Of a DNA stretch of 40,765 bases, positions 386 through 26,030 are shown piece by piece. Below the pieces are notes generated by a model that did no database searches, was not told the origin of the DNA, and saw only the letters and a list, made by a program, of their open reading frames with translations. A program made the position numbers and the translations under genes. The stretch covers positions 1-40,765 of the forward strand of contig PKTL01000081.1 of NCBI GenBank assembly GCA_002867475.1, given 5' to 3'. The DNA is from Candidatus Woesearchaeota archaeon. Lineage in GTDB: Archaea > Nanobdellota > Nanobdellia > Woesearchaeales > BM511. Each line of letters begins with the position of its first letter. The stretch's first letter is position 1.

Positions 386-3300
386 TCAAATCATATCAAG
401 CGCCTGATCAGCAAGAGAAGGCGTAACAGCAGAACCAGACAAACCACTCGAAACCCTACACTCCATCTCAGAAGTATCATCATCAGTTGTTACTACAAAA
501 GTCTGCTTACCTGAACCAACATTACCAAGATCATCCTTAACCTTAACCACCAATTCAAACTGATCAAGATTTGAATAATCCGAAAGTACATCAAGACCTA
601 CCTTGGATGGTTTAAAGTTGATAAAATAAGATCCAAATTTAGAATTATAATTCAAAGATACATCTGTATTGACTTTTGAACCTACTTGATAAGTAACTTT
701 TCCACCAGTAAAATCTTTATCGCAATCATCATAGATTATAATATCCATAAATCTTTCTACTGAATTGCTAACCTTTATGTTTTTTACAGGATTTATTATC
801 TTCACTTCAGGGCTTGTTTTGCACTTAGCTGAAGGATCTTGATTGTTCACTCTAAAGCTTTTGACTTCTCCATCTTCACCATCTGCATCAATTCCATAAA
901 GTATCTTTTCAAACCGGTCATCTGTTGGAGATAATGATGGCATTCCGCTTGGACAGCTTCCTTCAACGCAATGATAAAGCTCAAACTCAAAATCATATGA
1001 ACCAATTGTCAGATCAGATGAGCTACTAGGGTTCATATTAACTGAAGAATGGACCGTTTCATCTAATCTATATAAAACTAGACTAAGAGCATCAATATTT
1101 TGACTAGTTGAATATGCTGAAATCTGTATGTTCTTTATCTTTTTAGTTGTATCCAAACAATTACCAAAAGAAAAATAATCCTCTCTAAAATTTTGAGGAT
1201 AACAAATATGTTCTACTCCATCTTCACTAGTTAAAATAACTTCATTAAAACCAAGGAGGGTACTTTCAAAATTACTCTCCCCAGATGTAAGTCTTAATAA
1301 ATATGAACTATTTATCATCTTCTCTCTTAAATCAGCGTTTCCTGTGAATACTGTCCTCACATCTGCTGTGGTTTCCTGTTTTATTATCGGAACCGGAAGG
1401 ATAACCTCATTTTTCAAGACATCATTCTCATTGCATTTGAAAACATCCTTAATCAAGTAAGTTTCAGCGCCTTCTTTAACCAAAGTACCATCACTTTTTC
1501 GTACAACATATCTTACTATGAAGTCTTCTTTTTCGTACTGCCACTTCTTCAAGTCAAGCAATGCGTATAGGTCTGTTCCTTTGTAATATGTTTTAGGGAA
1601 CATATCAACGCTAACAAGTTCCATCTGTGCTGAGCCAGATGTTAATTCTCCAAGATCACATTGTAATCCAAGGTTTGAATTTACATCAAACCAGCAGTTA
1701 AAGTTAATATCCCCAATAGCACCAACATCGTTTCCTGGTTTTGTGCTTTTGGTCTCTCTTTTAGTTGTGCTTGTCTCGCTATAGGTATATAATTGGCAAA
1801 CTTGCCCACTACCTGTGCATTGACCTGTAGGTGGTGCAACAAGTACCCCTCCAAGCTTTGTGCAATCCTCAGCTTCAGTTACTGAGCATTTATATTCATA
1901 GGATGATTGCGGTTCAAGAACTACATCATCATAAGAGTAATCAACGTACACCTTGTTGTACCACCTGTGTGCTGGGTTATCATTGTAATATATTGTTTCA
2001 CTAAAAGTTGTTCCCCTAGGAACATTTATTGTTCTTACAGCGTAAGGTTCAAATCCTCCATTTGGACAATATTTTCCACCATCACATAACAAGTATATTG
2101 TTGCTGAAACGTCTGCTCCTTGTCCTGCCATGATGTAAGGAGTTATCTTGTATTGTATCTGCATGTAACCTGTTTGGTCATCATAACCGTTTACGTGTGA
2201 TGTTGCTGCAATTGGACCTATTGTTGGTTTTCTATCCTGTGCAGCTAAAAAACTATCAAGGAAAGTATCGAAGTTTGATGCATCAGCACCAAAAGCTGCT
2301 AAACACATCGCATGAACATAATTTGTGGTTCCAGTCTCACTCATCGCAACCCTGGTCAACGCATCCTCATAAGAATTAGTCATCTCTGCAAAGCTAGTAT
2401 GGCCTTTAGTATCCTTAAAACTGAAGATCTTCTCGTTTTGCGCCCATAACACCACTTTTTCAAATGCCCATGTAAACATCTCACAAGCACTAGTTGTAAG
2501 GAAATGCTCACAGTATCCTGCGTCAAGCACTCCTTCTTCAATGCTTTCCAAGCAATCAAGAAGCTGAGTAAGATGTCTTGATACTCTTTGTGTTTGAAGA
2601 TAGAAACCGCTAAAGCTTCCACACCTAATACTATCAAGCAAGTCATGCATAGGATTCAAATCATAATTTGCAGGACCTGTAATCCATACGCCTGGAATGC
2701 ATTTCCAATTATCATAATAAGGAGCATCTTTATAGAAGCACCTATTTGCTTGCGTTAAACCAGGAGTTATACCTGTGATGTATTCGCCTGATTGAGCTGC
2801 AGATGTCACTAATGCACCAACACCTGTTGAAGTTATTGAACTATCAACACCTGTTATTACAGGATTGCAAGGAACATTATTAATATTGAAAATGTTTCCT
2901 TCCCTATAATAACCTATTGTGACACCTTCACCATAAGATCCTAAAAAACTATCTAAAGGTATGCTTGAACCTGCAGCTTCACTACCACCAACCTTCTGGT
3001 TTAATGCTTGCCAAGTCTTATATCCTTGAGTTGTTTCTATAGATTCAGCTGTAGCACTTGCCGCATTTAAATTACCCATTAATTCATTTGTATCGATATT
3101 GATTGGATCACCATCTGAATTAGTAGGTCCTTTCGGAGGTACTTGAGGACTGAATATCCTGTCACATACTGCTTTCATTGCCTGTGTTATAAATTTAGCT
3201 GTTTCGCCACCATCAGTAGCAGAAAAAAAGCTAACTGCAGTGTTAGCTGCCATCAAAGCTATGCAAACAGGCATAGTGTTCTTTATCAATGTATCTCTTG

Positions 3301-5278
3301 TGAAATTGCTCATATCATCAACGAATTCTTTTGACTCATTAAAGAAAGGAATCAATTTATCATTTACTAATTCAGGTGTTAAAAATTTTGAGAAATCATA
3401 AGGGCTTTGTAATGAAACTTTTGCTTGAACAAACTGCATCTGTTCATCTGCAACGCCATCATACTCATAATTGATAATTACCTTAAAACTGAACTGAAGC
3501 TCATCCTGATCATATAAGTTTTCGTTTGCATCCATATCTTGCGCTACAAAATAAGGTAATAATATATGATAAGATTTAGTGCTTTCATCCTTGAAAGGGA
3601 TAGCATCTGTTTCTCCCATTATCGCAAAAGCGTTTCCACCAATCTGGTCCATACCACCTTCAACAGGATCAAATCTTAATGTTAAGCTATCAACCTTACT
3701 AAAAGATCTTGGGTCGTTCCATACAAGGTCAAACATAAGTAGCATTGGATAATCTTGATGTTTTATCCAAGCAGTATATAGTTCTGTTGGTTCGCTTTGA
3801 AACCCGCTAACTCCCCAAACAGTGCTTGTAGGTTCATAAGTGATAACCTTGAATGCATTATCAACATTTCCTGCCTTGTCGATTGCTAATATACAGATAT
3901 TGTTATCTCTATCTGTTTCATTTATCAATCTGTTTGGACTCATTAGACTAACTATTGATTCGAATTCTCCATCATTATCAGGAGTTATTTTTGAACCGCT
4001 ATTTCCAAGGATTGCTCCAACTAGATTCATACTAAAGCTTGCTTCTAGATCGAAAGCACCATTATTATTTGGATTAAATCCATATTCATATCCTTCTAAA
4101 AATGATTGTTCTATGTCATCAGCATACCTATCACATTTGTTTCCTGTCTCATTTCTTAAGTTTATTACATAAACTGTCAAGTCATCATTTCCTGAATTAT
4201 CTTCAGCGATTCCTTGAAGCGTTACAGGATTGAATGGCGTCCATAACCCACCTCTATAACCTGTTGAGCCGCCACTTATCACCATCTCAGAAATAGAAAC
4301 TATAGTAATATTTGTTATCTGAGGTTCCATCCTATCAACATAGACTTTAGCATCAAAAGAAATATTATTTCCTAAAAGGTCGCTCACTACAAAAGTTAGG
4401 TTCTGCTCGCCATCTCCAGATAATGTCAAAGAATTGTTTACATAACCCATTCCTTCAGTCTCAAATCCGAGATCTGAATATCTATCACTAACATTATCGA
4501 AAAATTCTATTGATCTGAATGTGTTCAATGTGTTACCGTTTGAATAAACCTTTACGCTCGCGTTTATCTCCATAACACCTATTAATCTTATTGTTCCTTG
4601 TGAATATGAAGGAAGCGATGCAAACTCGAAAGCTGGAGGTGTAAAGTCTCCAAATATGCTGAAATCCATCCTTTCGACCTCATTTGAGAAAGGGTCTATG
4701 AATTCTATCCTGAAATCATTATCTCCTTCAACTAGGTTAAGTCCAAGTGAAAAATCACCATCTGAATCATAATAAAATACTGAGCTTCCATCTTCAAGAT
4801 AAAGTTTTTGCTCATACCAGTACTCTCCAAAATTTCTTTTTATCCTTATCTTCTTATCACTCTCACCTTCAACTATAATCCTACTCTCTGCTGATGCTGC
4901 TGGAGGATATATCAGGTTGCTTTCGCTAAGAGGAACCACTGAACCAAAAGGTTGAGTTGTGAAGTTAAGTGTTGTTGTTTGTGAAGGATAATATTCATAT
5001 CCTGATTGCACCCTATAAGTATAGGTTGTTTCTGGTAGAAGACCTGTAAGAAGAACGCTGTGATTTTTTGTCACTGCGTTTTCAGGCTGTGAATCTGTTA
5101 AGCTTCCAACACCATAATGAACTATTCCTGCATTACTTTCATCGCTTGTCCAATTGAACCTTACTGAATTGTATAATGGTGTTACTTCAACGTTCATTAT
5201 CTCTGCAAAGGAGATTGTTGAAAATATTAATAGTAATGATATAAATAATATTGAATTGTACTTGTTTTTTGATCTCAT
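386..5278 (-). CDS. Giant secreted protein: signal peptide, N-terminal fibronectin-III-like domain, Ig-like regions, Cys-rich core
   Basis: 1630-aa ORF; SP 'NKYNSILFISLLLIFSTISFAEI'; Fn3-like 'VEVTPLYNSVRFNWTSDESNAGIVHYG...TTYTYRVQSG'; shares Cys signatures with the 1044-aa ORF at 10246. Confidence 0.85.
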   Translation of the reverse strand: MRSKNKYNSILFISLLLIFSTISFAEIMNVEVTPLYNSVRFNWTSDESNAGIVHYGVGSLTDSQPENAVTKNHSVLLTGLLPETTYTYRVQSGYEYYPSQTTTLNFTTQPFGSVVPLSESNLIYPPAASAESRIIVEGESDKKIRIKRNFGEYWYEQKLYLEDGSSVFYYDSDGDFSLGLNLVEGDNDFRIEFIDPFSNEVERMDFSIFGDFTPPAFEFASLPSYSQGTIRLIGVMEINASVKVYSNGNTLNTFRSIEFFDNVSDRYSDLGFETEGMGYVNNSLTLSGDGEQNLTFVVSDLLGNNISFDAKVYVDRMEPQITNITIVSISEMVISGGSTGYRGGLWTPFNPVTLQGIAEDNSGNDDLTVYVINLRNETGNKCDRYADDIEQSFLEGYEYGFNPNNNGAFDLEASFSMNLVGAILGNSGSKITPDNDGEFESIVSLMSPNRLINETDRDNNICILAIDKAGNVDNAFKVITYEPTSTVWGVSGFQSEPTELYTAWIKHQDYPMLLMFDLVWNDPRSFSKVDSLTLRFDPVEGGMDQIGGNAFAIMGETDAIPFKDESTKSYHILLPYFVAQDMDANENLYDQDELQFSFKVIINYEYDGVADEQMQFVQAKVSLQSPYDFSKFLTPELVNDKLIPFFNESKEFVDDMSNFTRDTLIKNTMPVCIALMAANTAVSFFSATDGGETAKFITQAMKAVCDRIFSPQVPPKGPTNSDGDPINIDTNELMGNLNAASATAESIETTQGYKTWQALNQKVGGSEAAGSSIPLDSFLGSYGEGVTIGYYREGNIFNINNVPCNPVITGVDSSITSTGVGALVTSAAQSGEYITGITPGLTQANRCFYKDAPYYDNWKCIPGVWITGPANYDLNPMHDLLDSIRCGSFSGFYLQTQRVSRHLTQLLDCLESIEEGVLDAGYCEHFLTTSACEMFTWAFEKVVLWAQNEKIFSFKDTKGHTSFAEMTNSYEDALTRVAMSETGTTNYVHAMCLAAFGADASNFDTFLDSFLAAQDRKPTIGPIAATSHVNGYDDQTGYMQIQYKITPYIMAGQGADVSATIYLLCDGGKYCPNGGFEPYAVRTINVPRGTTFSETIYYNDNPAHRWYNKVYVDYSYDDVVLEPQSSYEYKCSVTEAEDCTKLGGVLVAPPTGQCTGSGQVCQLYTYSETSTTKRETKSTKPGNDVGAIGDINFNCWFDVNSNLGLQCDLGELTSGSAQMELVSVDMFPKTYYKGTDLYALLDLKKWQYEKEDFIVRYVVRKSDGTLVKEGAETYLIKDVFKCNENDVLKNEVILPVPIIKQETTADVRTVFTGNADLREKMINSSYLLRLTSGESNFESTLLGFNEVILTSEDGVEHICYPQNFREDYFSFGNCLDTTKKIKNIQISAYSTSQNIDALSLVLYRLDETVHSSVNMNPSSSSDLTIGSYDFEFELYHCVEGSCPSGMPSLSPTDDRFEKILYGIDADGEDGEVKSFRVNNQDPSAKCKTSPEVKIINPVKNIKVSNSVERFMDIIIYDDCDKDFTGGKVTYQVGSKVNTDVSLNYNSKFGSYFINFKPSKVGLDVLSDYSNLDQFELVVKVKDDLGNVGSGKQTFVVTTDDDTSEMECRVSSGLSGSAVTPSLADQALDMI

Positions 5279-7215
5279 GACATCTTCACCGGGAACTTGC
5301 TTGATTTTTCAAATATTATATCTTGATATAAGGACCTTGTCTCTTCATAGGTTATCGGGTCAAGCTCTGATGCAAGAACATCAATAGTTATTTTGTTTGC
5401 TCTTACAAGATCGCTTCCTTTAACTATTTGATTATTGAAATAACCACCAACACTTATGTTAGTATTAGGTATTACAGTTCTCACATCAAATGTTAGATTA
5501 TTATCGTAGGTGCTGTTCAAAGGAATCCTGATAAAAAGATCGCTTGACATGTCACTATCCGGCATATATGCACTGTAATCATATTCCTCTAGATCATGAT
5601 TGTATACTGAGATTACAACACCATAAGTGTCAAAATCAAAAGGTACTGCACTGCTCATATCCCCAACGAACCTTCTTAGTTGAAGATCAACAGGTATCTC
5701 AACTATAGGCTTTAGTTTCATCTTCAAAGTACTCTCACTATATTCGCTTGGAGTAAAGAACATGTTATCAGGTATGTAGTCTGGATGCTCCACAACTAAA
5801 TTTCCATTGATGCAATCTGGAAGTTTAGCATCATTTATCTTTGCAGTTGTGCCTATAGGTATACCATATGAATCTCTTGGGTAATCAGTTATACCAAGCT
5901 GACATCTGAACTTAACACAATCATAATATACAGTAGCGTTAAAGATAGGTGCTCTTCTTACTGAATCTTCTACAAATATATCCACTTCATTTACTGAATC
6001 CTTGCAATAATCTTCAATGTTACCATAGTCTCCTGCTTCTGCAAGTTTTGCTATCTCTGCTAATGGATCGAATTGTTCGGGTGATCTTTGAGGATTATTA
6101 AGCAACATGTTCAGAGGTATTATAAAATTGAATTTTAAGCTTTCACTGTCTGTTATTGAAAACTTAACCGCGTAATCTGCACTATAGAAATGATTGTATA
6201 AGTTTATGCATGGATCGATCATGTCACCAATCATAGGAAGCTGTAAGTTGATGTTTCTTACTATTCCACCTTTGTTTGGTGCTACGCTAAAATATGTTGT
6301 TGGGATAACTTCCACATTTACACTATAGATTCGGTGCCTGCTTTCTGCACCTATATCGAAAAAATAATTTCCTTGATAATAATCAGGATATTCATAAGTT
6401 GGTATCAATTGCTCATTGAATGTGTTCTTATAGGTTATATAATGAAGATTTGCGGATAAAAGATTGTTGAAATCTTCTTCTAATTCTTCCATTGTCCAGG
6501 ATTTGTCACTGCAATCAAACTCATATCCTTTAAATGGGAGTTCTGAACCACTGATGATGTTTATTGTCCTGTTCCAAAGCATCAAGTTCTCATCATTATG
6601 CTCCTTTATCATGTGAGCTAATTCTATTGCTCCTAGCATGTTTGAAGCAACTGTTGCCCTATAATTATTTACTATAGTATCACCTTTTCCAGTCATTGTT
6701 TTCAAGTCAACTGGATAATCTAATTCTACTGATACTCTTTGACGACCAAGCAAGACCTTGCTTTCTGGCTTTGCAAGTTCAGTCAATTGATAGTTCTCTT
6801 TTATGCCTGAAAAGTTACCTATGCATTCTTCAAGCTTGCTATCAATGTAGATCTCTAGTTGTTCTTCAACTTTTTGCTGGTCTGGCGCAAAACTTTTTCC
6901 TTTGTTTTGCCAGTAAGGTATCTTGAAACCGTTTGGACCTAAGAATTCTTGGTATTCTCCATCATTTGATAGTTTCCATGGGCCTTCTTCAATTATTGAG
7001 TATCCTCCTTGGAAAGCTACGAGTGTGACTCCATCTTCAACCACTTCTCTTAAGCATTGCTCTACAAAATTCTTGACGTTTGTTGCGTCAGGTGCTAGAA
7101 TTGCATCAGGGTCAAAATATGTAAGATCTGCTTTCATACCTATATATATCAATGTAGATATAACTATCAAAAGCCCTAGTATTATGAAAAATGTTACTTG
7201 TCCACGCCTATTCAA
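5275..7215 (-). CDS. Pilin-like N-terminus surface protein (paralog of 13377..15500)
   Basis: MNRRGQVTFFIILGLLIVISTLIYIG; TTG start overlapping the upstream stop (TTGA). Shares FVxxC, GGY, IPYW, QxxxYI(D/E)xxLxxC and LDYPV blocks with the 716-aa ORF. Confidence 0.85.
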   Translation of the reverse strand: MNRRGQVTFFIILGLLIVISTLIYIGMKADLTYFDPDAILAPDATNVKNFVEQCLREVVEDGVTLVAFQGGYSIIEEGPWKLSNDGEYQEFLGPNGFKIPYWQNKGKSFAPDQQKVEEQLEIYIDSKLEECIGNFSGIKENYQLTELAKPESKVLLGRQRVSVELDYPVDLKTMTGKGDTIVNNYRATVASNMLGAIELAHMIKEHNDENLMLWNRTINIISGSELPFKGYEFDCSDKSWTMEELEEDFNNLLSANLHYITYKNTFNEQLIPTYEYPDYYQGNYFFDIGAESRHRIYSVNVEVIPTTYFSVAPNKGGIVRNINLQLPMIGDMIDPCINLYNHFYSADYAVKFSITDSESLKFNFIIPLNMLLNNPQRSPEQFDPLAEIAKLAEAGDYGNIEDYCKDSVNEVDIFVEDSVRRAPIFNATVYYDCVKFRCQLGITDYPRDSYGIPIGTTAKINDAKLPDCINGNLVVEHPDYIPDNMFFTPSEYSESTLKMKLKPIVEIPVDLQLRRFVGDMSSAVPFDFDTYGVVISVYNHDLEEYDYSAYMPDSDMSSDLFIRIPLNSTYDNNLTFDVRTVIPNTNISVGGYFNNQIVKGSDLVRANKITIDVLASELDPITYEETRSLYQDIIFEKSSKFPVKMS

Positions 7216-8030
7216 GATTTTTTCACCCTTCTATTCTTTTTTGTTTTTGACTTTTTAAAGGTTTCCCCCTTTAATGATTCATTTTCAGATATAAGAAGCT
7301 TCAAAACCAGGTTATGCGCTGAAAATATGAGAAGTCCTATTGTTGCTATCATAACTGGCGGTATGAAATAGACCAAAAAATTCAATGCATATGAGATTAT
7401 AAAAAGAAGTAATGCATATAGTAAATACTTTTTTAGATTTACTTCCTTCAATGTTTTCAATACATCAAAAAAATCTTTTTTTGAACCGATAAATCTTGAA
7501 TTGAACACGTAAAAATATATAACCATCAGATAGAACAATATAAGTATGGGTACTAATTGGAAAAGTATAACCTTAAACACTTCTGGAATAAAAGAAATAA
7601 TGTAAGATATCATTCCAAGAATCCAATTGAATATTAGATAAGCTATGGTTATTAGTATAAATAAAGAAATAATCACTGAAGTATTTTGTAATGAATATTT
7701 TAAAGAACCTTTCAATGAATACTTACCGTTCATTATCTTCTCCCAGATAAGTTTTCTTGTCAGATTGAATATCAAGAATCCTGATACAAATATCAATAAT
7801 AGAAGAACTAAGTAAACCGTGACGTAAGCATATAATTGGTCTTTTGCTATCATAAGCTCTACCTTGCTTAAGCTTTGCAAGAGATTTGGATCGAAAGGGG
7901 TTGTTGGCAGATATTTCTGTAATATATATGCAAATAATCTAACAAGAGCTAAAAACCCTGTAAGTGAAAAGAATTCTATGGCTAGCAATTGTAAGTTCTT
8001 TTTCCAATCTTTTAATGATTCATATTTCAT
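7212..8030 (-). CDS. Polytopic membrane protein of unknown function
   Basis: 272 aa with about 5-6 hydrophobic segments and a Lys/Arg-rich C-terminus (KKSKTKKNRRVKKS). Confidence 0.8.
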   Translation of the reverse strand: MKYESLKDWKKNLQLLAIEFFSLTGFLALVRLFAYILQKYLPTTPFDPNLLQSLSKVELMIAKDQLYAYVTVYLVLLLLIFVSGFLIFNLTRKLIWEKIMNGKYSLKGSLKYSLQNTSVIISLFILITIAYLIFNWILGMISYIISFIPEVFKVILFQLVPILILFYLMVIYFYVFNSRFIGSKKDFFDVLKTLKEVNLKKYLLYALLLFIISYALNFLVYFIPPVMIATIGLLIFSAHNLVLKLLISENESLKGETFKKSKTKKNRRVKKS

Positions 8031-8033
8031 ATT

Positions 8034-9443
8034 CTACACCCAATCATAAAGGAAGTCATAAACTGTGCTTTCCTCTTTCGCATTATCTCTTTGCGTTACA
8101 AAACTTGTGCAAAAACTTGTACTATCAAGACTATAATCTTCCAATAATTCTTTCAAGCCATCTGAACGAAATTGGAAATCAAGACATACCTTATCGAACA
8201 CTTCGTTTGAATTATTGTTTGTTATGTGTATTAAACTGTTTGTTCCAGTCTTTCTAAAATATGAATTGTTTCCCTCTTCAAGAGTTATAGTATCATTGTC
8301 ATCCACTATTCCATCCTTGTTCAAGTCCATTGCGACTTTTATTGGAACATTTCTCACATCATTTAATTCATCACCATAAAGATTAATAGTGAATTTTGTC
8401 TTACCATCTCCAAAATCTTCATTGTGGTTGAATATGACTTCAACCATATACAATTGGAATTCATATGGTTTTGGCTGGTTGAATCCTGTACTTGTATCTA
8501 CACAGATACCTTCAGCGCAAGCAACATGTCCTGAGTCAAAAAATCTTTCACAGATCTCATCATCATCCTCATCAGTAGTTATATTATAACAAGGTATAAG
8601 TTGACTGTAATTTGCTTTTGATGCTTCAAGAACAAGACCAAAATCACCATCAGAAGTAAGTAATACATTGCTTTCAGTTCCTGCGTCGAACGGGTAGCTG
8701 CATTCGCTTTCTGCCCAAGTGCTTGGATCAATATCATCAGCGATATCCATCAAGCCTTCAATCAATACCTGGTCATCATCCCAGATTCCAAGAGTGTTAG
8801 CTAATGTCCCCCATTGCTTGCCGGCAGCGATTGCATCCGCAGCATTATTAGTGAATTCAGCAATCTCCTCACCAGGCCAATCACCATCACCATTTTCATC
8901 CACTATACCAAAAAATTTGGCAACATCCTCATCCCATGAATCATCACCTAAAGTACCACCAAATTTTTCAGCAACATCATCTACCAATTTATCAAAAGAA
9001 TTTACCAAAGTATGTATTTTGAAATAAAGAGATTCTCTTTCTTCAACATCAGTAAGTCCTGAATCAATATCAAAAGTGTCAATTTCTGCGTCAGGCTCAA
9101 GACTCAATCCACCATCAACATCCCAAGGATCAGCAGGATTATCACCTTCATTTGAAGGTGAAACTTCACCCTCATCAGTAGGATCATCATCAATAACAGA
9201 TTGAATAGCCACACTCTCCTGCTCAGGAGTAATTGTAGTTGAAATACCTTCTTCTCCATCAGTAGGATCATCATCAATAACAGATTGAATAGCAACTGCC
9301 TCCTGCTCAGGAGTAATAACATTCCCTGTTAGCAAATTCTGATCTTTAAAAATTAAACTAGTAAAACTTAATATTATTATTACTAATAAGACTATAATTA
9401 GAGGAATCTTAAATTTATTTAATACATCTTTAATCTCTTTCAT
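8034..9443 (-). CDS. Single-TM acidic ectodomain protein with EF-hand/dockerin-like Ca-binding loops
   Basis: N-terminal TM 'IPLIIVLLVIIILSFTSLIF', very acidic ectodomain; loops DENGDGDWPGEE and DLNKDGIVDDND. Confidence 0.8.
   Translation of the reverse strand: MKEIKDVLNKFKIPLIIVLLVIIILSFTSLIFKDQNLLTGNVITPEQEAVAIQSVIDDDPTDGEEGISTTITPEQESVAIQSVIDDDPTDEGEVSPSNEGDNPADPWDVDGGLSLEPDAEIDTFDIDSGLTDVEERESLYFKIHTLVNSFDKLVDDVAEKFGGTLGDDSWDEDVAKFFGIVDENGDGDWPGEEIAEFTNNAADAIAAGKQWGTLANTLGIWDDDQVLIEGLMDIADDIDPSTWAESECSYPFDAGTESNVLLTSDGDFGLVLEASKANYSQLIPCYNITTDEDDDEICERFFDSGHVACAEGICVDTSTGFNQPKPYEFQLYMVEVIFNHNEDFGDGKTKFTINLYGDELNDVRNVPIKVAMDLNKDGIVDDNDTITLEEGNNSYFRKTGTNSLIHITNNNSNEVFDKVCLDFQFRSDGLKELLEDYSLDSTSFCTSFVTQRDNAKEESTVYDFLYDWV
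9173..9324 (-). repeat. 84-bp tandem repeat (28 aa: TPEQExVAIQSVIDDDPTD...)
   Basis: catcagtaggatcatcatcaataacagattgaatagc occurs at 9173 and 9257, followed in both by ctcctgctcaggagtaat. Confidence 0.9.
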
Positions 9444-10243
9444 AGTGTTGGCTCCTTTATCCTAAACATGTATTTTTCTGGTCTCACCTGTCCTGAGACT
9501 CCATCTTTTATCACTAGATCAGTATAATATTTTCCTGATGTAAAGCTTGAGTCAATAGGTATAACTATCCTAGCAAGGAAATATCCGTCCTTGTAAGGTG
9601 GTTTTCCTACATAAACAACCAAATCCTCAACGTCGTACCCTCTAATTATCTGGTTTGCTTCGTTTCGAAGCGTAAAATGTATCGATAAGCTGATGTTTCC
9701 ATTTATATCTTCTTGAAGATTATACATTTCTACAAAAAGGTAAGCTGTCGCACCTGGCGAGAACTGGTTATTATTTGCTTCTCCAGACTTAAATATTGAA
9801 TTATATGTAAATATGTGATTCACAACAAAAAATCCGTTTTCTAGAACATCATCAATGAATTCTTCATCTTCAACAAGACCTTCATCAATAAATTCTTCTG
9901 TTGAAAAAGCGTCATCAGAAAGCCTATTATCCTCTTGTTCTGCTGCTTCAGCCATTCTTTTTTCTTCTAGAAGTGTTGCGAAGTCTTTTCTTTCAGTAGT
10001 TCGCTCAGTTCTATCAGTTGTATCATCACCATCACCACCATCAAATATGCTATCAAAGCTTGGGAAAGCTGATGATTCACCATCAACAGTTACAACATCA
10101 AACTGAGCTTTCAAGTTTAGATAATATACTGAATAAAATGATGCTGTAAGAAGTAATAGTGTTATAATTAGAAAAGTCATCCAACCATCATTTGTCTTAA
10201 TGATTTGGGTTCCATAATTTTGGTATTGCCTTTGGTCAACCAT
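9440..10243 (-). CDS. Single-TM protein with acidic linker and beta-rich ectodomain
   Basis: 267 aa; TM 'WMTFLIITLLLLTASFYSVYYL'; C-terminal Ig-like segment; stop overlaps the next start by 4 bp. Confidence 0.8.
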   Translation of the reverse strand: MVDQRQYQNYGTQIIKTNDGWMTFLIITLLLLTASFYSVYYLNLKAQFDVVTVDGESSAFPSFDSIFDGGDGDDTTDRTERTTERKDFATLLEEKRMAEAAEQEDNRLSDDAFSTEEFIDEGLVEDEEFIDDVLENGFFVVNHIFTYNSIFKSGEANNNQFSPGATAYLFVEMYNLQEDINGNISLSIHFTLRNEANQIIRGYDVEDLVVYVGKPPYKDGYFLARIVIPIDSSFTSGKYYTDLVIKDGVSGQVRPEKYMFRIKEPTL

Positions 10244-10245
10244 AT

Positions 10246-13200
10246 TTAATCATCATCCTCCAACACCATCGAACAATAATCTGTTGTTTCATCTTCAAGT
10301 TCAAATATGTCACCACTAAAAATTCCTGAGAAAGCCTGAACTGCAGAAACTAATGCATTAATCTTGCTTATAACATGAGTAACAGCACAAGCAGCATTTA
10401 AAGTTGCGCCGCCTGTAGGAGCACATACAGGAGGTAATTTACATCCATAATTTAATATCATACCTATTACAGCTACAGGATTTTGTGCAAATAATCTTAT
10501 TATCGATGCAAACATCTGTAATAAAATTGAAAATGGCATACTATTATAGAATTGACCATATACAAAGATACAAGTAGCATAAGCTTTCTGACCCTCACAA
10601 ACATAAGGTTGCATACCTTGTTCAACAACTTGATTTTCAAGACAATAGACATATTTACAATCTATATTTCTTTTCTGTTTCAAATTATATAATACACCTG
10701 GAATGCATAAAAGAAGTATTGAATAAAGCATACTTTTCTTTGCAATATCCCAATAAGAACCAACAAGTTCACCTCTAAGCTTGGCCAAAGATTGATCAGT
10801 TGATAAGCCAGTAACTGCAAAAATAATTATCTCTTTAACAGTAGTATCCATATCTTCATCACCACTAGTCATTCTTTCTGTGATGAACTTCGGAACTAAG
10901 CTACAATCAGCAAAATTACATAGATTATTTATAAAAGTGCCAATACCTTCAAAAACTGTAGCTATACCAAAATCTGCGGTACAAACACCCATTTTTGCAG
11001 GCGGATTCCAATTCAAAACTTCAGCAGCTATAGCAAATGCAGCACTTATACCTGTATAAATAGTATTAGCAGTATTCCAAACCTGACACATCTGCTGTAT
11101 CATCTCTATCAGACCCATCATGTCATCAATCCACATCTGAGATTCGAGGTCGCTTTTCAAATCCTCAATTTTATTTTTCAGCTCTTCGCCTGCTTTGTAT
11201 TGTGATGTATAAGTAGGGATAGTGAAAGTCATGTTCATCTCAAAACCTTGGTAACGAACACCGTTGCTTGCTGAAATTATCATTATAGGACAAGTGTATT
11301 CTAAATTATCATTGTTTGGTATGTCAACCTTATTCAGCTGCACTTCGAAAAGCAGTTTGTCTTCATCTTGATAAGGTTTTGTCGCTCTAAATATTGTTGC
11401 ATCCCTAAATGCTTTTGTAGCATTAGGATCGTTTGAAACACATTCAGTGCTTTGTAAGAAATCAAGTGATAATGATCTTGCTCCAGGAGTGTTTCCATCT
11501 AATTCTTTTGTCACAAAAACACTTACATAGTCTAATGGAAAATAGGGTAATGTTACGAGGTCGACTTTTTCTGGAATCACACTATCATCAAGTAATCTCC
11601 AGAAATCTCTTGAGTCTTCAGATACTGTAAGAACTTCAACTTCTGATTCATATTCAAGCAGGTTTCCTGCACAGTCATATATGTCAAAATAGACAGGTAT
11701 CATTCCTGTTGAGTCTGCTCTAACAACAGAATTCCAGACACATTCATACTCGTTTCCACGTAAATGCCTGCAATCTGTAGCCACATTATCATAACCTTGA
11801 GATAATCTTGAGAAGTTTGCGTATGCTTCTTCTACACAACTCGTGTCTTCATGAACTTTTAATTTAAAAGTTATCTGGTCTCCATCATCAACCCAAGGAT
11901 GACCTCCACCCATCGCTTCAAAGTACTCTTCTGATTCATCAAAATAAGGAGGTTCACTATCATAGATTATTATACTGCTCGCATCTTCAAATATGTTACC
12001 TATATCATCATAAGATTCACCAAGCCTTACTTCAAAAGGACCACCTTCTTCCAAAGTTACAGGATAAGATAATAAACATATCCATGATGAGCCTGTCTCT
12101 TCACATGAATCAACCCATCTATCATTATAATTGACTCTACCAAGGTTCAAGCTGACTAATTTCTTTGTGAAGGTTTTGGATCCTGATAATATTTCAACCT
12201 TAAAATCAGTTCTTTCTTTAGCATAACATTGACCTGATTCCCTTGAGCAATAGGTTGTTCCTAAAAGGTCAACAACAGGCCGGACATTATCTTCGCTTAA
12301 TACTTTTGTGAATGCTTGATTATCTATAGAATAACCCATAGTGTCACTAGCACTTATCCTTATCTCAACAACTCCTGATGAAGGATTCAATTGATATCCA
12401 TCGCTTCCACCAGAGACCTCTTCTGAAACGCAGACATAATTATAATCATTCTCACTTGAGCAATCAAAAGATACATCAGCATACACTGATTTCAAATACA
12501 TAGTATTTGTTAATTCTGAAAGATCTGCTTTGACACTTGCAGGATCAAGATTTCTATCATTTATCTGAAATGTCACAAACACGCTTCTGTAAAAGCTTGG
12601 ATCTGCTTCGGTTGAAACAAGAGTTACTTCTTCCTGTGTTGCTGAATCTATAAATTTTATCGTTCCTGCAAGAACTGTTGGGCTTTCAGCATCATAATAT
12701 ATTATTACTTCTTCGCTTACTGCAGAATTTCCTAAATTATCCTCAACAGATAATGCGAATCTATATTCACCGCTTGTTGTTATACCAAGATCCACACCTG
12801 ACATACTGACAACACAATCATTTGGCGATGTAGTTATTTCTAGATCAATAGGTTCTGTTGTTGCACTTAATATTCGCGCTTTTTTAATTCCTGAACAGGA
12901 ATTTCCCGATGTTTCACTTGACATCCTTATTTCTTTTATATCAAGGTCTGTTTTTATCTTGCCATCATTTGCATCTTGATACACTCTAAATGATTCTATC
13001 AAAGGAGCTGCATTATCAACTTTCATTATCACACTTTTTGATGAAATAGGGTTTGTATCTGGGTCAAGCTCGCTTAATACATATGATGCAATATCATTGT
13101 GCGTTGTTGGAAGTGAGCTTGTTGGTTTAAGACTGCAATCATACTTACTTGTTGTTGAATTAAATATGCAATTGAAAGGTCTTGAGCTTGGAGAATCTGA

Positions 13201-13380
13201 AAAAACAACTGTCGGATTATCCGATCTAACATCTATCCTAATATTATCATTGCCTCTCAGATAACCATTGTAACCATCTTGACCCCCTGCATATACAACA
13301 GTTATATCTGCATAAGCTAACGCGCTAAGAAAAGGTAGTGTTAGTACCAACATTATCATAAAGCTTGCTTTTCCTCTCAT
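10246..13380 (-). CDS. Large secreted Ig-like protein with Cys-rich hydrophobic core
   Basis: 1044 aa; SP 'MRGKASFMIMLVLTLPFLSALAYA'; Ig-like repeats; C-x5-ANT, CIPGV and CLEN...CE-x7-C blocks shared with the 1630-aa ORF. Confidence 0.85.
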   Translation of the reverse strand: MRGKASFMIMLVLTLPFLSALAYADITVVYAGGQDGYNGYLRGNDNIRIDVRSDNPTVVFSDSPSSRPFNCIFNSTTSKYDCSLKPTSSLPTTHNDIASYVLSELDPDTNPISSKSVIMKVDNAAPLIESFRVYQDANDGKIKTDLDIKEIRMSSETSGNSCSGIKKARILSATTEPIDLEITTSPNDCVVSMSGVDLGITTSGEYRFALSVEDNLGNSAVSEEVIIYYDAESPTVLAGTIKFIDSATQEEVTLVSTEADPSFYRSVFVTFQINDRNLDPASVKADLSELTNTMYLKSVYADVSFDCSSENDYNYVCVSEEVSGGSDGYQLNPSSGVVEIRISASDTMGYSIDNQAFTKVLSEDNVRPVVDLLGTTYCSRESGQCYAKERTDFKVEILSGSKTFTKKLVSLNLGRVNYNDRWVDSCEETGSSWICLLSYPVTLEEGGPFEVRLGESYDDIGNIFEDASSIIIYDSEPPYFDESEEYFEAMGGGHPWVDDGDQITFKLKVHEDTSCVEEAYANFSRLSQGYDNVATDCRHLRGNEYECVWNSVVRADSTGMIPVYFDIYDCAGNLLEYESEVEVLTVSEDSRDFWRLLDDSVIPEKVDLVTLPYFPLDYVSVFVTKELDGNTPGARSLSLDFLQSTECVSNDPNATKAFRDATIFRATKPYQDEDKLLFEVQLNKVDIPNNDNLEYTCPIMIISASNGVRYQGFEMNMTFTIPTYTSQYKAGEELKNKIEDLKSDLESQMWIDDMMGLIEMIQQMCQVWNTANTIYTGISAAFAIAAEVLNWNPPAKMGVCTADFGIATVFEGIGTFINNLCNFADCSLVPKFITERMTSGDEDMDTTVKEIIIFAVTGLSTDQSLAKLRGELVGSYWDIAKKSMLYSILLLCIPGVLYNLKQKRNIDCKYVYCLENQVVEQGMQPYVCEGQKAYATCIFVYGQFYNSMPFSILLQMFASIIRLFAQNPVAVIGMILNYGCKLPPVCAPTGGATLNAACAVTHVISKINALVSAVQAFSGIFSGDIFELEDETTDYCSMVLEDDD

Positions 13381-15500
13381 TTGAATATCGGCCTCGTCAA
13401 GTTATAGTTTTCCATATAGATATCTGATAATTCTCCAAGGAGTTCCATCTCATCAGTACCTACATTAATATTAGGTTCATAAAAATTAGGCACTAATATA
13501 TTTATCTCAATAGATGATGAATTGTATAATTCTTCAGGCATTATCTCAAAATACACATCATTACTACCATTCACATTTATTGATGCTGTCATACTCATAT
13601 TTACATTTTGTCCGCCTGCTTTAGCAACAAATTCCCTATCATCAAGATATATAAGATTTAGATAATATTTTCCAGGATAAAACTCTTTTTCAACAATGGT
13701 AAAATTCTTATCAATCATTATTGAATCCATTATCCTTTCTTTGGAAATAGAATCTCCTTTTCTTTCATATTGTATAATTAAATTTTCATGAGGATATGTT
13801 CCATTCATAGACACCATCGGAGTTGATCCATTAAGAACCCAATTGTTTATTTTTTCCAATACTAATTTATTTATAGAAATCTCTAATTTTTTCTTTGGAT
13901 ACATCACATATTCTTGATAATCTGTCTTGTTTGATGAGAACAAATACATATCATAACTATCAAGGTAATCCTTGTGAGACAGAACTATATAACCCATCCC
14001 CGATTGGAATTTTCCTGTATAATAACCTTCATGGTCTGTTATTCCTTCCTGACACTGCACATCAACAAATGCTGACCTGACATCAACATCTGGAATCTCA
14101 TAATTATCGGTGTAATCTATTGCTTTAACGGTTATATCTCCCGTTTTCTTGAATTCATCTCCACATATATCCATTACTTCTGTATTCATCATACCCATAT
14201 TATTCTGATAATTATCACTACTATAAGCATATACTGCTTGATTATTTCTAAGGTTTGATTCAAGAGCAAAATAAAATGACCAACCTTCATTATTGAATGC
14301 AACTGGATCGGTTATCTTAACAAGGACTGGATAAGATACGTCGTAACTGAAATCATATCTTGTCATTCCAAGACCTATAAAGCTCAAGAAAGGGTTTGAT
14401 CCAGAATCAGGCGATATCACATCACCTCTTCTGGGATTTATGTCAACGTGAAGCTCCCAATTAGGCATGTACATGAATTCAACATCTAAAGGGAATAAGG
14501 CATCATAGTTTAAATCAACTATATAGTTCATCTTGTTTATCATCTCATCCCATGTGCTTGATCCATTATCCATCTGGATCTTCAACAAGGATAAGGTATT
14601 TGTAACCTTGATGCTTGGAATATTTGCTTGGAGCATTCCCCTTAGATGATCTTCGACTTCTGATTGCCTCCAGGATTTGCTTCCTGAATTAGCGCTAAAA
14701 TCTGTTCCACCATACATAGGAGGTATCATCCCTTCGATTCCCCCAAAAGAGGTTATGAGATTTGCAAGATTCTCTTCCAAAAAATAAGTATCCTTTTCTC
14801 TACCCGTAATCATTTGAGCAAGCCAATAAGCATAATATAGTTTTACATCGAATCTTTTTTCAAAATATCTAAGCTCTGTTTGGTGGTTTCCGTAAGTTAT
14901 ATTCACGGGGTAATCAAGCCTTACTACAACAGTGTTTTCCTGAACATCAGTTGCTGCAATTGGATACTGATCAAGCACTGTCATTCCTTGTTCTATAAAT
15001 CCTTGATAACCATTTAAGCATGTTGCAAGATTATCTTCAATGTAATAGCTTATCTGGTTTTCAATAGAGATCGGGTCGCTTGATGATGAAAGAGTTGGTA
15101 CGTAATCAGCTTTAAATTCACAATTTGTTTGGCAATCATTAGGACTATTCATATACATCCAGTAAGGAATTACCATGTTTGTTCCTTCAACAAGTTCTAA
15201 CCCAGTGCTTTCGGTTTCCATTCCTGGAAGAATAATTGTTGTTGATCTATTTAATTCAACATAACCTCCCCCTTGACCTATCAACATTAATGCATCAGTT
15301 CCAACTTCTTCAAAACACCTATATACAAAATCACTTACAGTTTGTGTCTCATCAGTCAATTTTCCTGCATTATATTCAAGATCCTTGCTTTCTGCAATTG
15401 TCTTGTTGATATACATTATGACTGCTGTTGCTAGAAGCATTATGATTCCTATTATTATGAAGATTGTCACCTGGCCTTTTCTGGATTGAGCAATCTTCAT
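13377..15500 (-). CDS. Pilin-like N-terminus surface protein (paralog of 5275..7215)
   Basis: Listed ORF starts at 15527, but the internal ATG at 15500 (MKIAQSRKGQVTIFIIIG) has a GGAGG Shine-Dalgarno 7 nt upstream and forms a 4-bp ATGA overlap with the upstream gene. Confidence 0.85.
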   Translation of the reverse strand: MKIAQSRKGQVTIFIIIGIIMLLATAVIMYINKTIAESKDLEYNAGKLTDETQTVSDFVYRCFEEVGTDALMLIGQGGGYVELNRSTTIILPGMETESTGLELVEGTNMVIPYWMYMNSPNDCQTNCEFKADYVPTLSSSSDPISIENQISYYIEDNLATCLNGYQGFIEQGMTVLDQYPIAATDVQENTVVVRLDYPVNITYGNHQTELRYFEKRFDVKLYYAYWLAQMITGREKDTYFLEENLANLITSFGGIEGMIPPMYGGTDFSANSGSKSWRQSEVEDHLRGMLQANIPSIKVTNTLSLLKIQMDNGSSTWDEMINKMNYIVDLNYDALFPLDVEFMYMPNWELHVDINPRRGDVISPDSGSNPFLSFIGLGMTRYDFSYDVSYPVLVKITDPVAFNNEGWSFYFALESNLRNNQAVYAYSSDNYQNNMGMMNTEVMDICGDEFKKTGDITVKAIDYTDNYEIPDVDVRSAFVDVQCQEGITDHEGYYTGKFQSGMGYIVLSHKDYLDSYDMYLFSSNKTDYQEYVMYPKKKLEISINKLVLEKINNWVLNGSTPMVSMNGTYPHENLIIQYERKGDSISKERIMDSIMIDKNFTIVEKEFYPGKYYLNLIYLDDREFVAKAGGQNVNMSMTASINVNGSNDVYFEIMPEELYNSSSIEINILVPNFYEPNINVGTDEMELLGELSDIYMENYNLTRPIFK

Positions 15501-16408
15501 TGTGCTGCCTCCACTCGTTTCATGCAATCAAAATAATAGAATGGGAACCTTATCCCTTTGCATAATGTTTTTGAGTTTGGATCCTCCTTGTTAAGCTGAG
15601 CAGCGATGTAGAAGCAAAGATCAGGGTTTTGGCTTTTCTGACAATACAAGGATGATTCTATCAACCCTTTATCTTTCAATTCAAATATTAATTGGTTTGC
15701 CTGCACATAACTTTCCCTAAAGAAAAGATTTGCGTAAAACATTGTTCCAATTATTAGACATAGCCAGATGAATACCAATGAAATCATGAAAAGCTTATCT
15801 GTTGCGTGAACATGATATTCAGGTTTTGGATGTAGGAAGTAGTATTTTTTTGACATCAAGAAAAGAAGAGTTATTATGTTCAATATCAATACTAGTACGA
15901 ATGAAAAATTTATGTAGCTTCGAATCGCTCCAACAAAAAGGCTTCGAATTGAAAAGATTGAAAGAAGAGTATTAAATATGACAAGGCCAAAAAATATGTT
16001 TATCAAGTAGTAATGTTTTATGTCCTTTTTTGCTATCCCATAAATCATGTAGAATATTAATCCTATGATTGCTGCATTTACTAAAAATGATGGAAATCCA
16101 CTTATGAAAAGGCCAAAAACCATCGCTTTTTTCAAGTATAATCCAGTCAACCCATAGAAAAATGCTAGAATAAATAGATATACTGTCATGACCCTCATTC
16201 CAAGAGGCAGATCATGTTCAATCTTCAAGAATTTCTGGTAAAGGCTTTTTTCAGGTTTATTGTTTTGTTTATGGTGTGTAGTTGATGATTTTTTTTTAGT
16301 TGTGGAAGTTGCCTTTTTAGAAGAAACAATTTTTTTTGTTTTTGGAGCCTTATGGCTTTTAGAATTGTTTACGCCACTCCTCTTTTTCACAGTACTTTTA
16401 GCTGTCAA
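15497..16408 (-). CDS. Lys-rich N-terminus + polytopic membrane protein, first gene of operon
   Basis: 303 aa; TTG start preceded by a GGTGGG SD; basic low-complexity N-terminus (KKRSGVNNSKSHKAPKTKKIVSSKKATSTTKKKSS) then about 6-7 TM helices. Confidence 0.8.
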   Translation of the reverse strand: MTAKSTVKKRSGVNNSKSHKAPKTKKIVSSKKATSTTKKKSSTTHHKQNNKPEKSLYQKFLKIEHDLPLGMRVMTVYLFILAFFYGLTGLYLKKAMVFGLFISGFPSFLVNAAIIGLIFYMIYGIAKKDIKHYYLINIFFGLVIFNTLLSIFSIRSLFVGAIRSYINFSFVLVLILNIITLLFLMSKKYYFLHPKPEYHVHATDKLFMISLVFIWLCLIIGTMFYANLFFRESYVQANQLIFELKDKGLIESSLYCQKSQNPDLCFYIAAQLNKEDPNSKTLCKGIRFPFYYFDCMKRVEAAQ

Positions 16409-16511: not shown

Positions 16512-17174
16512 TTATTCACAGTCACATTTAGGAATAGTTCGTTTTTTTATATGCTTATACTTTTTTTCTAATAAGCAAAGCAGCTTACATAAATCATCAG
16601 GATTGAATATCAAGATAAGAGAACCTTCTATCTTTTTACCTGAATCCTTTATGCTTAAAGTGTTGTTAACGAAAAGAAATTCAAAATCATCATATCCTAA
16701 ATTATTTGTTACAAAATCAAATATTGATGCAGAATTATCTAATGCGAGATGAGGAAGTGAAGGAAGTAATTTCAATCCAGAAAACTCAGCAAGACTATTA
16801 AGATATGAACCAGTAAGGATATTGCTTACTTCTTTTATAACACTGATGCCTTCTTCATCCAGTAATGTTACATTATCATTTGTTATCTCTTTTATCAGCT
16901 CGATAGCTTCATCATTCTTGAAAAGGCATACAAGAACCCCTTCCAAATCTTCTAACACTTGTAGATGGACACCTACAAATACCTCATCAATAGGAAATAT
17001 TTTGTAAATGTCTTTTTTCTTGACTATACCTAGATCTGGCCAAGTTATCTCTACTTCTTTATCTGTTAATTGGCTAAGTGCTGTGCTACTGTGACCAAAA
17101 CCAATATTTGCTACTTCTTGAAGAATGCCTTTACTTCGTTCTGATAATTCTACTGAAAATTTTGGAAGTTTCAT
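16512..17174 (-). CDS. cheC: CheC-family CheY-P phosphatase-like protein
   Basis: Two copies of the CheC motif: EVAN-x22-P (LQEVANIGFGHSSTALSQLTDKEVEITWP) and S-x3-EVSN-x22-P (SVIKEVSNILTGSYLNSLAEFSGLKLLPSLP). Confidence 0.85.
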   Translation of the reverse strand: MKLPKFSVELSERSKGILQEVANIGFGHSSTALSQLTDKEVEITWPDLGIVKKKDIYKIFPIDEVFVGVHLQVLEDLEGVLVCLFKNDEAIELIKEITNDNVTLLDEEGISVIKEVSNILTGSYLNSLAEFSGLKLLPSLPHLALDNSASIFDFVTNNLGYDDFEFLFVNNTLSIKDSGKKIEGSLILIFNPDDLCKLLCLLEKKYKHIKKRTIPKCDCE

Positions 17175-17213: not shown

Positions 17214-19232
17214 TTACCTAACTTTACCTACTATGTTTCTATCTGAAACTAGATAGTTTCCATTAGCAACCAATTTTTTGCCTTCAGATAGTATACCTTC
17301 TTCAGTTGATTTAATCTTGACCTTCTGGAATTCCTCAAATGTGATCTTGCTTTGCGGAAAACTCTCCACTCCTTCAAGAGTCACTCTTGTTCCAAGTTCT
17401 GCATCAGACAGGATTACTCCAACACCATCTTTGCCATCTGCTGCTAGAAGCATACCTTCACTTAATTCACCACGAAGCTTTGCTGGCAAAAGATTACATA
17501 CAACGATGATTTTCTTGCCATTTAATTCTTCCATAGAATAATAATCTTTGAGTCCGCTAACAATTTGCCTTGTTTCCCCATTTCCAAGATCAATCTTTTC
17601 GATGTAAAGTTTTTCAGCATCTGGATGCTCCTTTACTTCAATTATTTTTGCAACCTTCAAATCAAGCTTTCCAAACTTAGATTCAATGACTTCTTTTTGT
17701 GACTCTTGCTTCTTGCTTTTATTTTGAACTTTAGAGAAAATATTATCTTTCTCTTTTATTTTCAAGCCTTCGGGAATTTCAGAGAACTTGAAAGTTTTTT
17801 CTTTATCGAAATTGAACTGATCGATTATCCTTAAAGATTTTGTTGGCATGAAGCAATCGATGTAATCAGCAAACATTTTTGCAGAAGATACTAATATATT
17901 TACTATAGTTGCTAATCTTGACATATCTTTTTCTTTCCATGGCTCTACCTTATTGACATATGCATTCACATCACGAACAGACGTCCAAAGGATCTCTATA
18001 GCTCTATTGAACTTTAATCCTTGCATCTCTTTGTTGAAATCATCAAATATGTTAAGTGATGAAATGATTTCATTATCAACATCATTCAACTCATTTCTTT
18101 TTGGAACTTTGCCATCAAAATATTTTGTAACCATAGTATGGATCCTACTTATAAGGTTTCCAAGATCATTATTTAGGTCATTGTTTATCTTCTCAATCAA
18201 GTGATCATAGCTAAAGTTCAAATCATCACCATAGGTTCCAAGCGCTAGAACGAAAAACCTGAATTCATCAACACCATATTTCTCTATAACTTCATAAGGA
18301 TCGACTATGTTTCCAAGGCTTTTACTCATCTTATGACCTTCCGCGTCAAGAATCATACCATGATTGAAAACTTTTTTTGGCAGTTCAATACCACAACTTA
18401 ATAAGAATGCTGGCCAGTAAACCGTGTGAAACCACATTATATCATAACCAATTATGTGAACATCACATGGCCAAAAATCTTGCTTTTCTAGATTGATTGG
18501 AGCAGTATAATAATTGAAAAGTGCATCGAACCAAACATAAGTTACGTGTTCATCATCAAAAGGTATTGGAACACCCCAAGTAAGATTATCTTTATGTCTA
18601 CTGATACTAAGGTCATCTAATCCTTCTTTTACCCTGTTCAATATTTCGAGTTGCTTGCTTTTTGGACTGATAAAATCAGGATTTTCTTCATATAATTCTA
18701 ATAATTTATCTTGGTATTTTGATAATTTGAAAAAATAGTTTTCTTGACTGACCTTTTCAACCTCTTTTTTATGGTCTGGGCAAAGCTTTCCATCGACTAG
18801 CTCATCTTCCTTGTAATATCTTTCACAACCAACACAATATAATCCTTCATAGTTTCCTTTGTATATGTCTCCATTGTCAAAACTTTTCTGCAAGTACTCT
18901 TGAACCAATTTCTTATGATCTTTGTCGGTTGTTCTGATAAAATAATCATTACTAATATTTAATTTTTTACAGAGTTCCTTAAATTTCTCTGCTTGAATAT
19001 CAACGAATTCCTTAACTTCTTTTCCAGCTGATTTTGCAGTGTCTGCAATTTTTTGTCCATGTTCATCAGTTCCTGTCAAGAAAAAGACTTTTTTCCCCAT
19101 GTTTCTATTCCACCTAGCGATCACGTCAGCACTTATCTTCTCGTATGCATGACCTATGTGAGGGTTTCCACTAGCATAATCTATTGCAGTAGTCACATAA
19201 AAAGTATTTTTATCATCATTATTATCTGTCAT
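17214..19232 (-). CDS. metG: Methionyl-tRNA synthetase with C-terminal EMAP/Trbp111-type tRNA-binding domain
   Basis: HIGH-type 'GNPHIGHAY', 'KMSKSLGN', C-terminal 'FGKLDLKVAKIIEVKEHPDAEKLY'. Start set at internal ATG 19232 (listed ORF 19247) because the TATA at 19255-19260 places transcription start there. Confidence 0.95.
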   Translation of the reverse strand: MTDNNDDKNTFYVTTAIDYASGNPHIGHAYEKISADVIARWNRNMGKKVFFLTGTDEHGQKIADTAKSAGKEVKEFVDIQAEKFKELCKKLNISNDYFIRTTDKDHKKLVQEYLQKSFDNGDIYKGNYEGLYCVGCERYYKEDELVDGKLCPDHKKEVEKVSQENYFFKLSKYQDKLLELYEENPDFISPKSKQLEILNRVKEGLDDLSISRHKDNLTWGVPIPFDDEHVTYVWFDALFNYYTAPINLEKQDFWPCDVHIIGYDIMWFHTVYWPAFLLSCGIELPKKVFNHGMILDAEGHKMSKSLGNIVDPYEVIEKYGVDEFRFFVLALGTYGDDLNFSYDHLIEKINNDLNNDLGNLISRIHTMVTKYFDGKVPKRNELNDVDNEIISSLNIFDDFNKEMQGLKFNRAIEILWTSVRDVNAYVNKVEPWKEKDMSRLATIVNILVSSAKMFADYIDCFMPTKSLRIIDQFNFDKEKTFKFSEIPEGLKIKEKDNIFSKVQNKSKKQESQKEVIESKFGKLDLKVAKIIEVKEHPDAEKLYIEKIDLGNGETRQIVSGLKDYYSMEELNGKKIIVVCNLLPAKLRGELSEGMLLAADGKDGVGVILSDAELGTRVTLEGVESFPQSKITFEEFQKVKIKSTEEGILSEGKKLVANGNYLVSDRNIVGKVR

Positions 19233-19254
19233 GGAAAAAGAAAACAACTAGAGA

Positions 19255-25901: not shown

Positions 25902-25956
25902 CTTATGAGTCCCACCAGTTTTTAAAAAAAAACTTATAGTTTACATTAGAAACCGC

Positions 25957-25968
25957 GTTTATAAATAT
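25957..25968 (-). promoter_or_regulatory. Putative TATA box for the 1430-aa surface gene
   Basis: Minus strand atatttataaa about 60 nt upstream of ATG 25901. Confidence 0.5.
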
Positions 25969-26010
25969 GTCGATTTTAAAAAATAAATTAAAATAAAAAA
26001 TAAGTAAAAA

Positions 26011-26030
26011 AAAAAACACTAAAAGTGTTT
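26011..26030 (-). terminator. Hairpin + T-tract, terminator-like
   Basis: Minus strand AAACACT-TTT-AGTGTTT followed by TTT...; perfect 7-bp stem, overlapping the TAA of the 1877-aa gene. Confidence 0.6.

Follow-up and report, generated by a model that had tools for sequence, protein, structure and literature searches.

A Conserved Eight-Gene Surface System of Woesearchaeales and Its Possible Role as a Cell-Contact Apparatus

Introduction

The recognition of and attachment to partner cells by DPANN archaea is little understood, and most of their lineage-specific membrane or secreted protein families have no assigned function (PMC8204110). A multi-gene surface system that is nearly universal in one lineage therefore offers a concrete target. 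The locus described here, from a tiny and probably partner-dependent archaeon, consists of eight tightly packed genes for surface proteins, which raises the question of whether they encode a single apparatus and, if so, of which kind. The original prediction had seen in them a pilus- or secretion-like machine of the cell envelope.

Eight Coupled Genes for Membrane and Secreted Proteins

The window, i.e., the whole stretch of DNA that was analyzed, is an entire contig of 40,765 bases (C63) of a 1.67-Mb, 95%-complete genome. Its minus strand carries eight open reading frames, A to H, encoding in order of transcription 303, 707, 1044, 267, 469, 272, 646, and 1630 aa. By direct reading of the letters, neighboring genes overlap by ATGA at the junctions A/B (15497-15500), B/C (13377-13380), D/E (9440-9443), and G/H (5275-5278), and by TTGA at F/G (7212-7215); C and D are separated by a gap of 2 bp (TAA-AT-ATG), E and F by one of 3 bp (TAG-AAT-ATG). 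According to hydropathy, A has five transmembrane (TM) segments, F has six to seven, and B, C, D, E, G, and H have one each at the N-terminus. The gene coordinates and junctions given by the original prediction are thus exact to the letter, and its view that all products are membrane-bound or secreted holds, each having TM segment(s) or a signal by hydropathy. The contig ends beyond H, so that a second F-like gene, as found in relatives, would fall outside the window. Upon comparison of A to H with Pfam and NCBIfam, the sole family match above cut-off is a generic fn3/Ig-like domain at the N-terminus of H. In these databases, the members thus do not fall into known unrelated families.

A CheC-like gene (window 16512-17174; Pfam 3.9e-16) lies directly upstream of the operon and is not found at that place in the closest genome, G002 (JAAOYB010000032.1, Candidatus Woesearchaeota). 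In several genera, represented by G002, G014, G015, G009, G006, and G010, metG is located just upstream of the operon; in the window, metG (17214-19247) is separated from it by the CheC-like gene.

Conservation of the Gene Block

Stretches around homologs of G or C were collected from ~60 further genomes within the order, and their genes were called mechanically with profile HMMs. The block [A]-B-C-D-E-F-G-H recurs across the Woesearchaeales: C directly follows B in 44 of 55 cases and H directly follows G in 36 of 38, and where a fetched stretch includes both genes, 24 cases have G after F and 19 have F after E. In 24 of 67 groups, a single fetched stretch contains all six genes B, C, E, F, G, and H; many of the remaining groups are cut by contig or fetch ends. 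Even the exact 4-bp overlaps are retained in part, namely in 18/44 B-C, 15/36 G-H, and 6/6 D-E junctions. Since gene order and 4-bp overlaps recur in other genera, the arrangement is not a product of chance.

Among the matches listed, the C profile finds ~156 of the ~166 genomes of the order (about a dozen of them weakly), and in sister orders it gives weak matches only. The G profile matches 241 of 279 genomes across the phylum; within the order, one family includes several genomes without any match to it. Homologs that were scattered, or that belonged to known unrelated families, would have spoken against the single multiprotein envelope system that had been proposed. What is found is synteny kept across the order and a three-gene core kept across the class: the eight genes form one system. 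No description of the operon was found in the text of open-access papers. The gene system is new in the sense that it belongs to no known family or named system, while its mechanism may prove to be that of an unusual pilus tip or surface layer.

B and G, Two Paralogs Proposed as Anchors

Gene B (13377-15500, minus strand) encodes a protein of 707 aa with a single TM segment, the N-terminus SRKGQVTIFIIIG, and a large ectodomain, and is proposed here as the anchor of C. Gene G (5275-7215, minus strand) starts with TTG and encodes a putative single-TM anchor of 646 aa. B and G are paralogs along the entire protein (hhalign 100%, E 1e-93), which bears out one half of the earlier claim of paired paralogs. 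A further duplication of the putative anchor is seen at a locus of genome G045 (L060), where two B-type genes lie on one stretch.

The N-termini of both proteins follow the pattern [KR][GA]Q[VI]TxF(III)G, and the prepilin-type signal together with the TM segment spans 15411-15482 in B ([KR][GA]Q[VI]TxF, aromatic at +5 and no Glu5) and 7123-7209 in G (RRGQVTFFIILG, F or Y at +5), both on the minus strand. Position +5 is F or Y in all 47 readable N-termini of B and all 36 of G, and Glu in none of the 83; ordinary pilins of the same genome have Glu at this position. A FlaFind-like pattern for class III signals is matched by 44/55 B and 34/38 G proteins, compared to 6/55 C, 2/38 H, and no D or E proteins. 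According to published work, processing does not depend on Glu5, which is often missing from pilins of archaea, but homopolymers require it (PMC4471445). In the light of this literature, processing of B and G by a prepilin peptidase is possible despite the aromatic residue, and a filament built from B and G alone is unlikely.

The AlphaFold model of G (mean pLDDT 81.3) consists of the TM helix, a second helix and then β-domains, one of which resembles transthyretin/CarboxypepD-reg domains (Foldseek 5aq0, TM 0.7). The arrangement of domains relative to each other is uncertain in the models of both G (pTM 0.54) and C (pTM 0.42). Foldseek searches with these models gave no whole-protein match for either protein among solved structures, and no pilin fold among the matches of G. 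Likewise, G, F, and the constant domain of E have no match among PDB sequence profiles.

The Giant Secreted Proteins C and H

Gene C (10246-13380, minus strand) encodes a secreted giant of 1044 aa with a signal peptide. In its AlphaFold model (pLDDT 79.7), tandem Ig-like domains extend to residue 725 and are followed by an all-helical, Cys-rich end. The predicted stalk of Ig-like β-sandwiches (residues 27-725; 11206-13302, minus strand) rests on the secondary structure of the model and on generic Foldseek matches to Ig tandems. The helical part (residues 731-1044; 10249-11190, minus strand) carries the signature CIPGVLYNL...C...CLE...C...C and is shared with H. Gene H (386-5278, minus strand), which follows G, encodes a secreted giant of 1630 aa with an fn3/Ig-like N-terminus, a central Cys-rich helical domain and a presumably β-rich C-terminus. 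Its signature, C.SF.GFYLQ...CLE...G.C...C (2354-2713, minus strand), is common to C and to the giants of sister orders. The match between C and H is limited to ~70 residues of the Cys-rich helical domain (98.4%, E 7e-15), so that the second half of the claim of paired paralogs applies to C and H only in this part.

A Constant Domain with Exchangeable Front Parts: E

Between C/D and F, the operon encodes a secreted protein, E, whose size ranges from ~370 to >2000 aa among genomes, with one frame of 3407. D itself (9440-10243, minus strand) is a single-TM ectodomain protein of 267 aa. In the window, E (8034-9443, minus strand) has 469 aa and combines a short front part, which contains a duplicated 19-aa repeat and is without known domain, with a constant C-terminal domain (residues ~183-463; 8055-8897, minus strand). 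The constant part comprises ~265 residues, and 37 of 42 copies group in a single BLAST cluster; the front parts, of which 39 were compared, are spread over 32 unrelated clusters. It occurs about once per genome in 75 genomes and was found only in this order. In eight genomes, C and the constant domain of E are fused into a single ORF, which speaks for a joint action of the two proteins.

Domains recognized in E front parts are SLT transglycosylase (two proteins), Sel1, PG_binding_1, and HINT with an intein-like match, together with weaker matches to M43, CBM5/12, and SGNH. The combination of a constant part with exchangeable effector domains (HINT, SLT, Sel1, PG-binding) is reminiscent of polymorphic toxin-like carriers. 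Such carriers have the effector at the C-terminus and an adjacent immunity gene; in E, the variable part is N-terminal. No domain is recognized in the majority of E front parts and of giants, and fast-evolving disordered front parts would likewise appear variable.

The Polytopic Proteins and the Origin of the Operon

Two products of the operon are polytopic. A (15497-16408, minus strand; 303 aa) has a Lys-rich N-terminal tail and ~5 TM segments and is an accessory found in part of the order, with homologs upstream of B or C in G002, G037, G158, G153, G218, G148, and G095. F (7212-8030, minus strand; 272 aa) has 6-7 TM segments without large loops and neither a conserved motif nor a family match, and it belongs to the class-wide core.

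This core becomes apparent in sister orders, where a single homolog of G (hhalign 100%, E 1e-110) stands in front of a secreted giant, adjacent in ~20/20 loci. Where the stretch is complete, these giants usually have 1500-3000 aa, and they share the Cys-rich helical domain with H (97.4%, E 1e-11). An F-like six-TM protein follows the giant in about half of the 20 loci. In the tree, 53 B sequences form one clade, 36 G sequences another and 17/18 sister sequences a third, the support for the G clade being low (0.42). Compared to the three-gene form, the eight-gene form looks duplicated and expanded. F-like genes also occur after H in several relatives. The simplest history suggested by these sequences starts from an ancestral set of anchor, giant and F, whose duplication within the order gave rise to [B-C-D-E-F] and [G-H-(F')].

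Several genomes additionally encode stand-alone mini pairs, in which a protein of 240-445 aa with a B/G-type N-terminus precedes a secreted protein; eight of these pairs are coupled and a ninth is adjacent. In the genome of the window, two mini pairs are located on contig C16 (L039:2-13869), each with a QVTxFIIIG protein (346 or 358 aa) and, after it, a secreted protein, which has 770 aa in one pair and at least 2893 aa in the other. They resemble miniature B-C or G-H modules.

Cell Wall Hydrolase Domains in Relatives

In sister orders, the giants can contain inserted domains of the types SLT (3/16), M23, NlpC/P60, VanY, glucosaminidase, or metallophosphatase. SLT domains inside the frame of the giant or within ~10 kb of G were counted by eye in at least ~11 genomes of sister orders. 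M23 peptidase was also considered as the typical payload and rejected, since most M23 domains show no linkage to it. In the window, no hydrolase domain was found in E, C, or H. A role in cutting cell walls thus concerns the relatives; the payload of the window might serve the same purpose.

A comparable observation has been made for fam00969, a family of Woesearchaeota and Pacearchaeota that includes proteins of up to 3,000 aa with a murein-transglycosylase domain, for which attachment to bacterial walls was proposed (PMC8204110). Both this family and the system described here comprise very large secreted proteins from the same groups, some of them with SLT. However, the available part of that source treats a protein family only, without operon context, anchors, E slot, or three-gene core (PMC8204110). 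Moreover, fam00969 has SLT within a very large secreted protein, whereas C, E, and H of the window are without SLT. Predatory, “vampiristic” Woesearchaeota have been proposed earlier (PMC9723730), and peptidoglycan hydrolases that kill bacteria have been reported in archaea (PMC12352652).

A Candidate Apparatus for Cell Contact

The best explanation at present, to which we would give an even chance, is that the operon encodes a cell-surface contact apparatus of Nanobdellota, composed of the anchors B and G, the giants, the base proteins and the exchangeable payload E. It builds on the observed synteny, paralogy, three-gene ancestor and signal motif, on the fusion of C with E, on the swapping of payloads, and on the hydrolase domains of relatives; the pairing of the parts follows from gene order and fusion, and from there anchoring, docking, and contact might be conceived as follows. 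B and G would be membrane anchors with prepilin-type N-termini, each translated with, and probably holding, its own Ig-stalk giant (B-C and G-H). The Cys-rich helical domain of C and H could provide a common functional head, and F, joined by A where present, a polytopic base in the membrane. E would be the exchangeable payload, whose constant C-terminal domain docks on C. Such a device could extend from a small partner-dependent cell, bind another cell, be it partner or prey, and present lineage-specific activities, which in some relatives are peptidoglycan-cutting or -binding domains. The model predicts which proteins are in contact, which part varies with the partner, and which lineages cut bacterial walls.

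More tentative, and in our view somewhat doubtful, is the far-reaching proposal of a new class of contact nanomachine, ancestral to a whole class of partner-dependent archaea, in which duplicated anchor-giant pairs carry exchangeable, docked effectors including bacterial-wall hydrolases. If true, this machine would determine for each lineage the partners or prey that it is able to bind or breach.

Relation to Type IV Pili

The prepilin-type N-termini suggest a different reading, namely a type IV pilus tip or priming complex that is served in trans: B and G would be giant minor pilins cleaved by the peptidase of the genome, C, H, and E tip adhesins comparable to PilY1, and one of the genomic motors would assemble the shaft. 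We regard this as unlikely, while acknowledging that several observations fit. B and G conform to the pattern of [KR][GA]Q[VI] plus TM segment, and subunits that lack Glu5 can join compound filaments (PMC4471445). The components needed in trans, a possibility that the original prediction had considered, exist: searches and fetched stretches place ATPases and a peptidase elsewhere in the genome, namely three ATPases of the T2SSE type and one clear Peptidase_A24 prepilin peptidase. Two of these ATPases have T2SSF partners and weak PilB3-like matches at the C-terminus. In the order, T2SSE ATPases were detected in 60/60 genomes tested and prepilin peptidase in 57/60; in the phylum, the peptidase is present in 268/279 genomes. 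Service in trans is accordingly possible. A further point in favor comes from contig C71 (L035:12442-15663), which encodes a 1073-aa protein with the B/G-like N-terminus KKKGQVTFFIIIG and weak similarity to G next to a PilB3-like ATPase, two T2SSF proteins and a pilin, the sole motor neighbor of this kind seen in the genome.

The known systems of this type show both the likeness and its limits. Archaeal minor pilin/adhesin operons (PMC4858521) share with B and G the prepilin-type N-terminus with [KR][GA] before Q, likewise encode large Cys-containing secreted proteins together with pilin-like proteins, and have motors that may serve several pilin sets. The system described here differs from these operons in that neither a motor nor T2SSF is linked, position +5 is aromatic in 83/83 cases, the ectodomains have ~650 aa, and Pfam, NCBIfam, and PDB sequences give no family match. 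The bacterial tip adhesins PilY1/PilC are giant, secreted and accompanied by pilin-like minor pilins, and PilY1 likewise joins an N-terminal part that varies to a constant C-terminal one (PMC4471445). However, no β-propeller constant domain was identified here, and the constant domain of E has no PDB sequence match.

Linkage to pilus motors was tested and rejected: a motor or T2SSF lies near only 1 of ~83 module loci, at a distance of >10 kb, and the few motors on the same contig match, by estimate, the level expected by chance. In about ten genomes that encode the operon or G, motors are few and apparently limited to the universal type of ~760 aa. Genomes without G retain peptidase and motors, and with the peptidase nearly universal, co-occurrence is uninformative. 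The invariant aromatic residue and the large ectodomains are unlike pilins, in line with the absence of a pilin fold among the structural matches. The original prediction is thus supported in part: the single envelope system is borne out, the pilus or secretion machine is not, as ~82 of 83 loci have no linked motor, Glu5 is always absent and B and G are far larger than pilins.

An ATPase of ~768 aa is present in nearly all 60 relatives, including ones with few other motors. In the genome of the window, the 768-aa T2SSE-type ATPase is encoded on contig C9 (L038:3575-10068) with a 751-aa T2SSF-like partner and divergent pilins.

Structural and Secretory Alternatives

B and G could alternatively form the stalks, and C and H the canopy, of a structural envelope layer similar to a two-component S-layer, to which E would be attached as an extra. 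SlaB is anchored at its C-terminus. The pairing of stalk and giant genes, the Ig-tandem architecture and the near-universal presence in the order would suit such a layer, and the giant/anchor pairs recall Sulfolobus SlaA/SlaB, where a giant secreted protein is combined with a membrane-anchored multi-domain stalk. Foldseek indeed lists SlaB for G (8qox_B, E 1.4e-4) and the Nitrosopumilus S-layer for C. However, these matches have TM-scores <0.2 (0.14/0.19 with rmsd 27 for 8qox_B) and rmsd >20, as would be typical of generic β-sandwich tandems, and B and G are anchored at the N-terminus. A lattice would leave two non-equivalent giants, the payload slot and the hydrolase domains unexplained, and several genomes of one family of the same order have no match to the G profile. 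A structural layer therefore seems improbable to us. Finally, F and A could make up a channel through which E or substrates are secreted or taken up, which would agree with the place of F in the class-wide core and the cargo-like variation of E. Such a secretion or uptake machine is most improbable, given that F has no conserved motif or family match, each product comes with a signal peptide or TM segment of its own, and no ATPase is linked.

Other Surface Proteins in the Window

Outside the operon, the window encodes two more giant surface proteins of 1430 and 1877 aa (21609-31662), which have similar signal peptides and C-terminal TM ends; the first of the pair, with 1430 aa, gives several DUF285 matches. 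At the edge of the contig, a truncated ORF on the plus strand (2-331) contains a duplicated EIRAPNMEIKNKIGFCTGY repeat.
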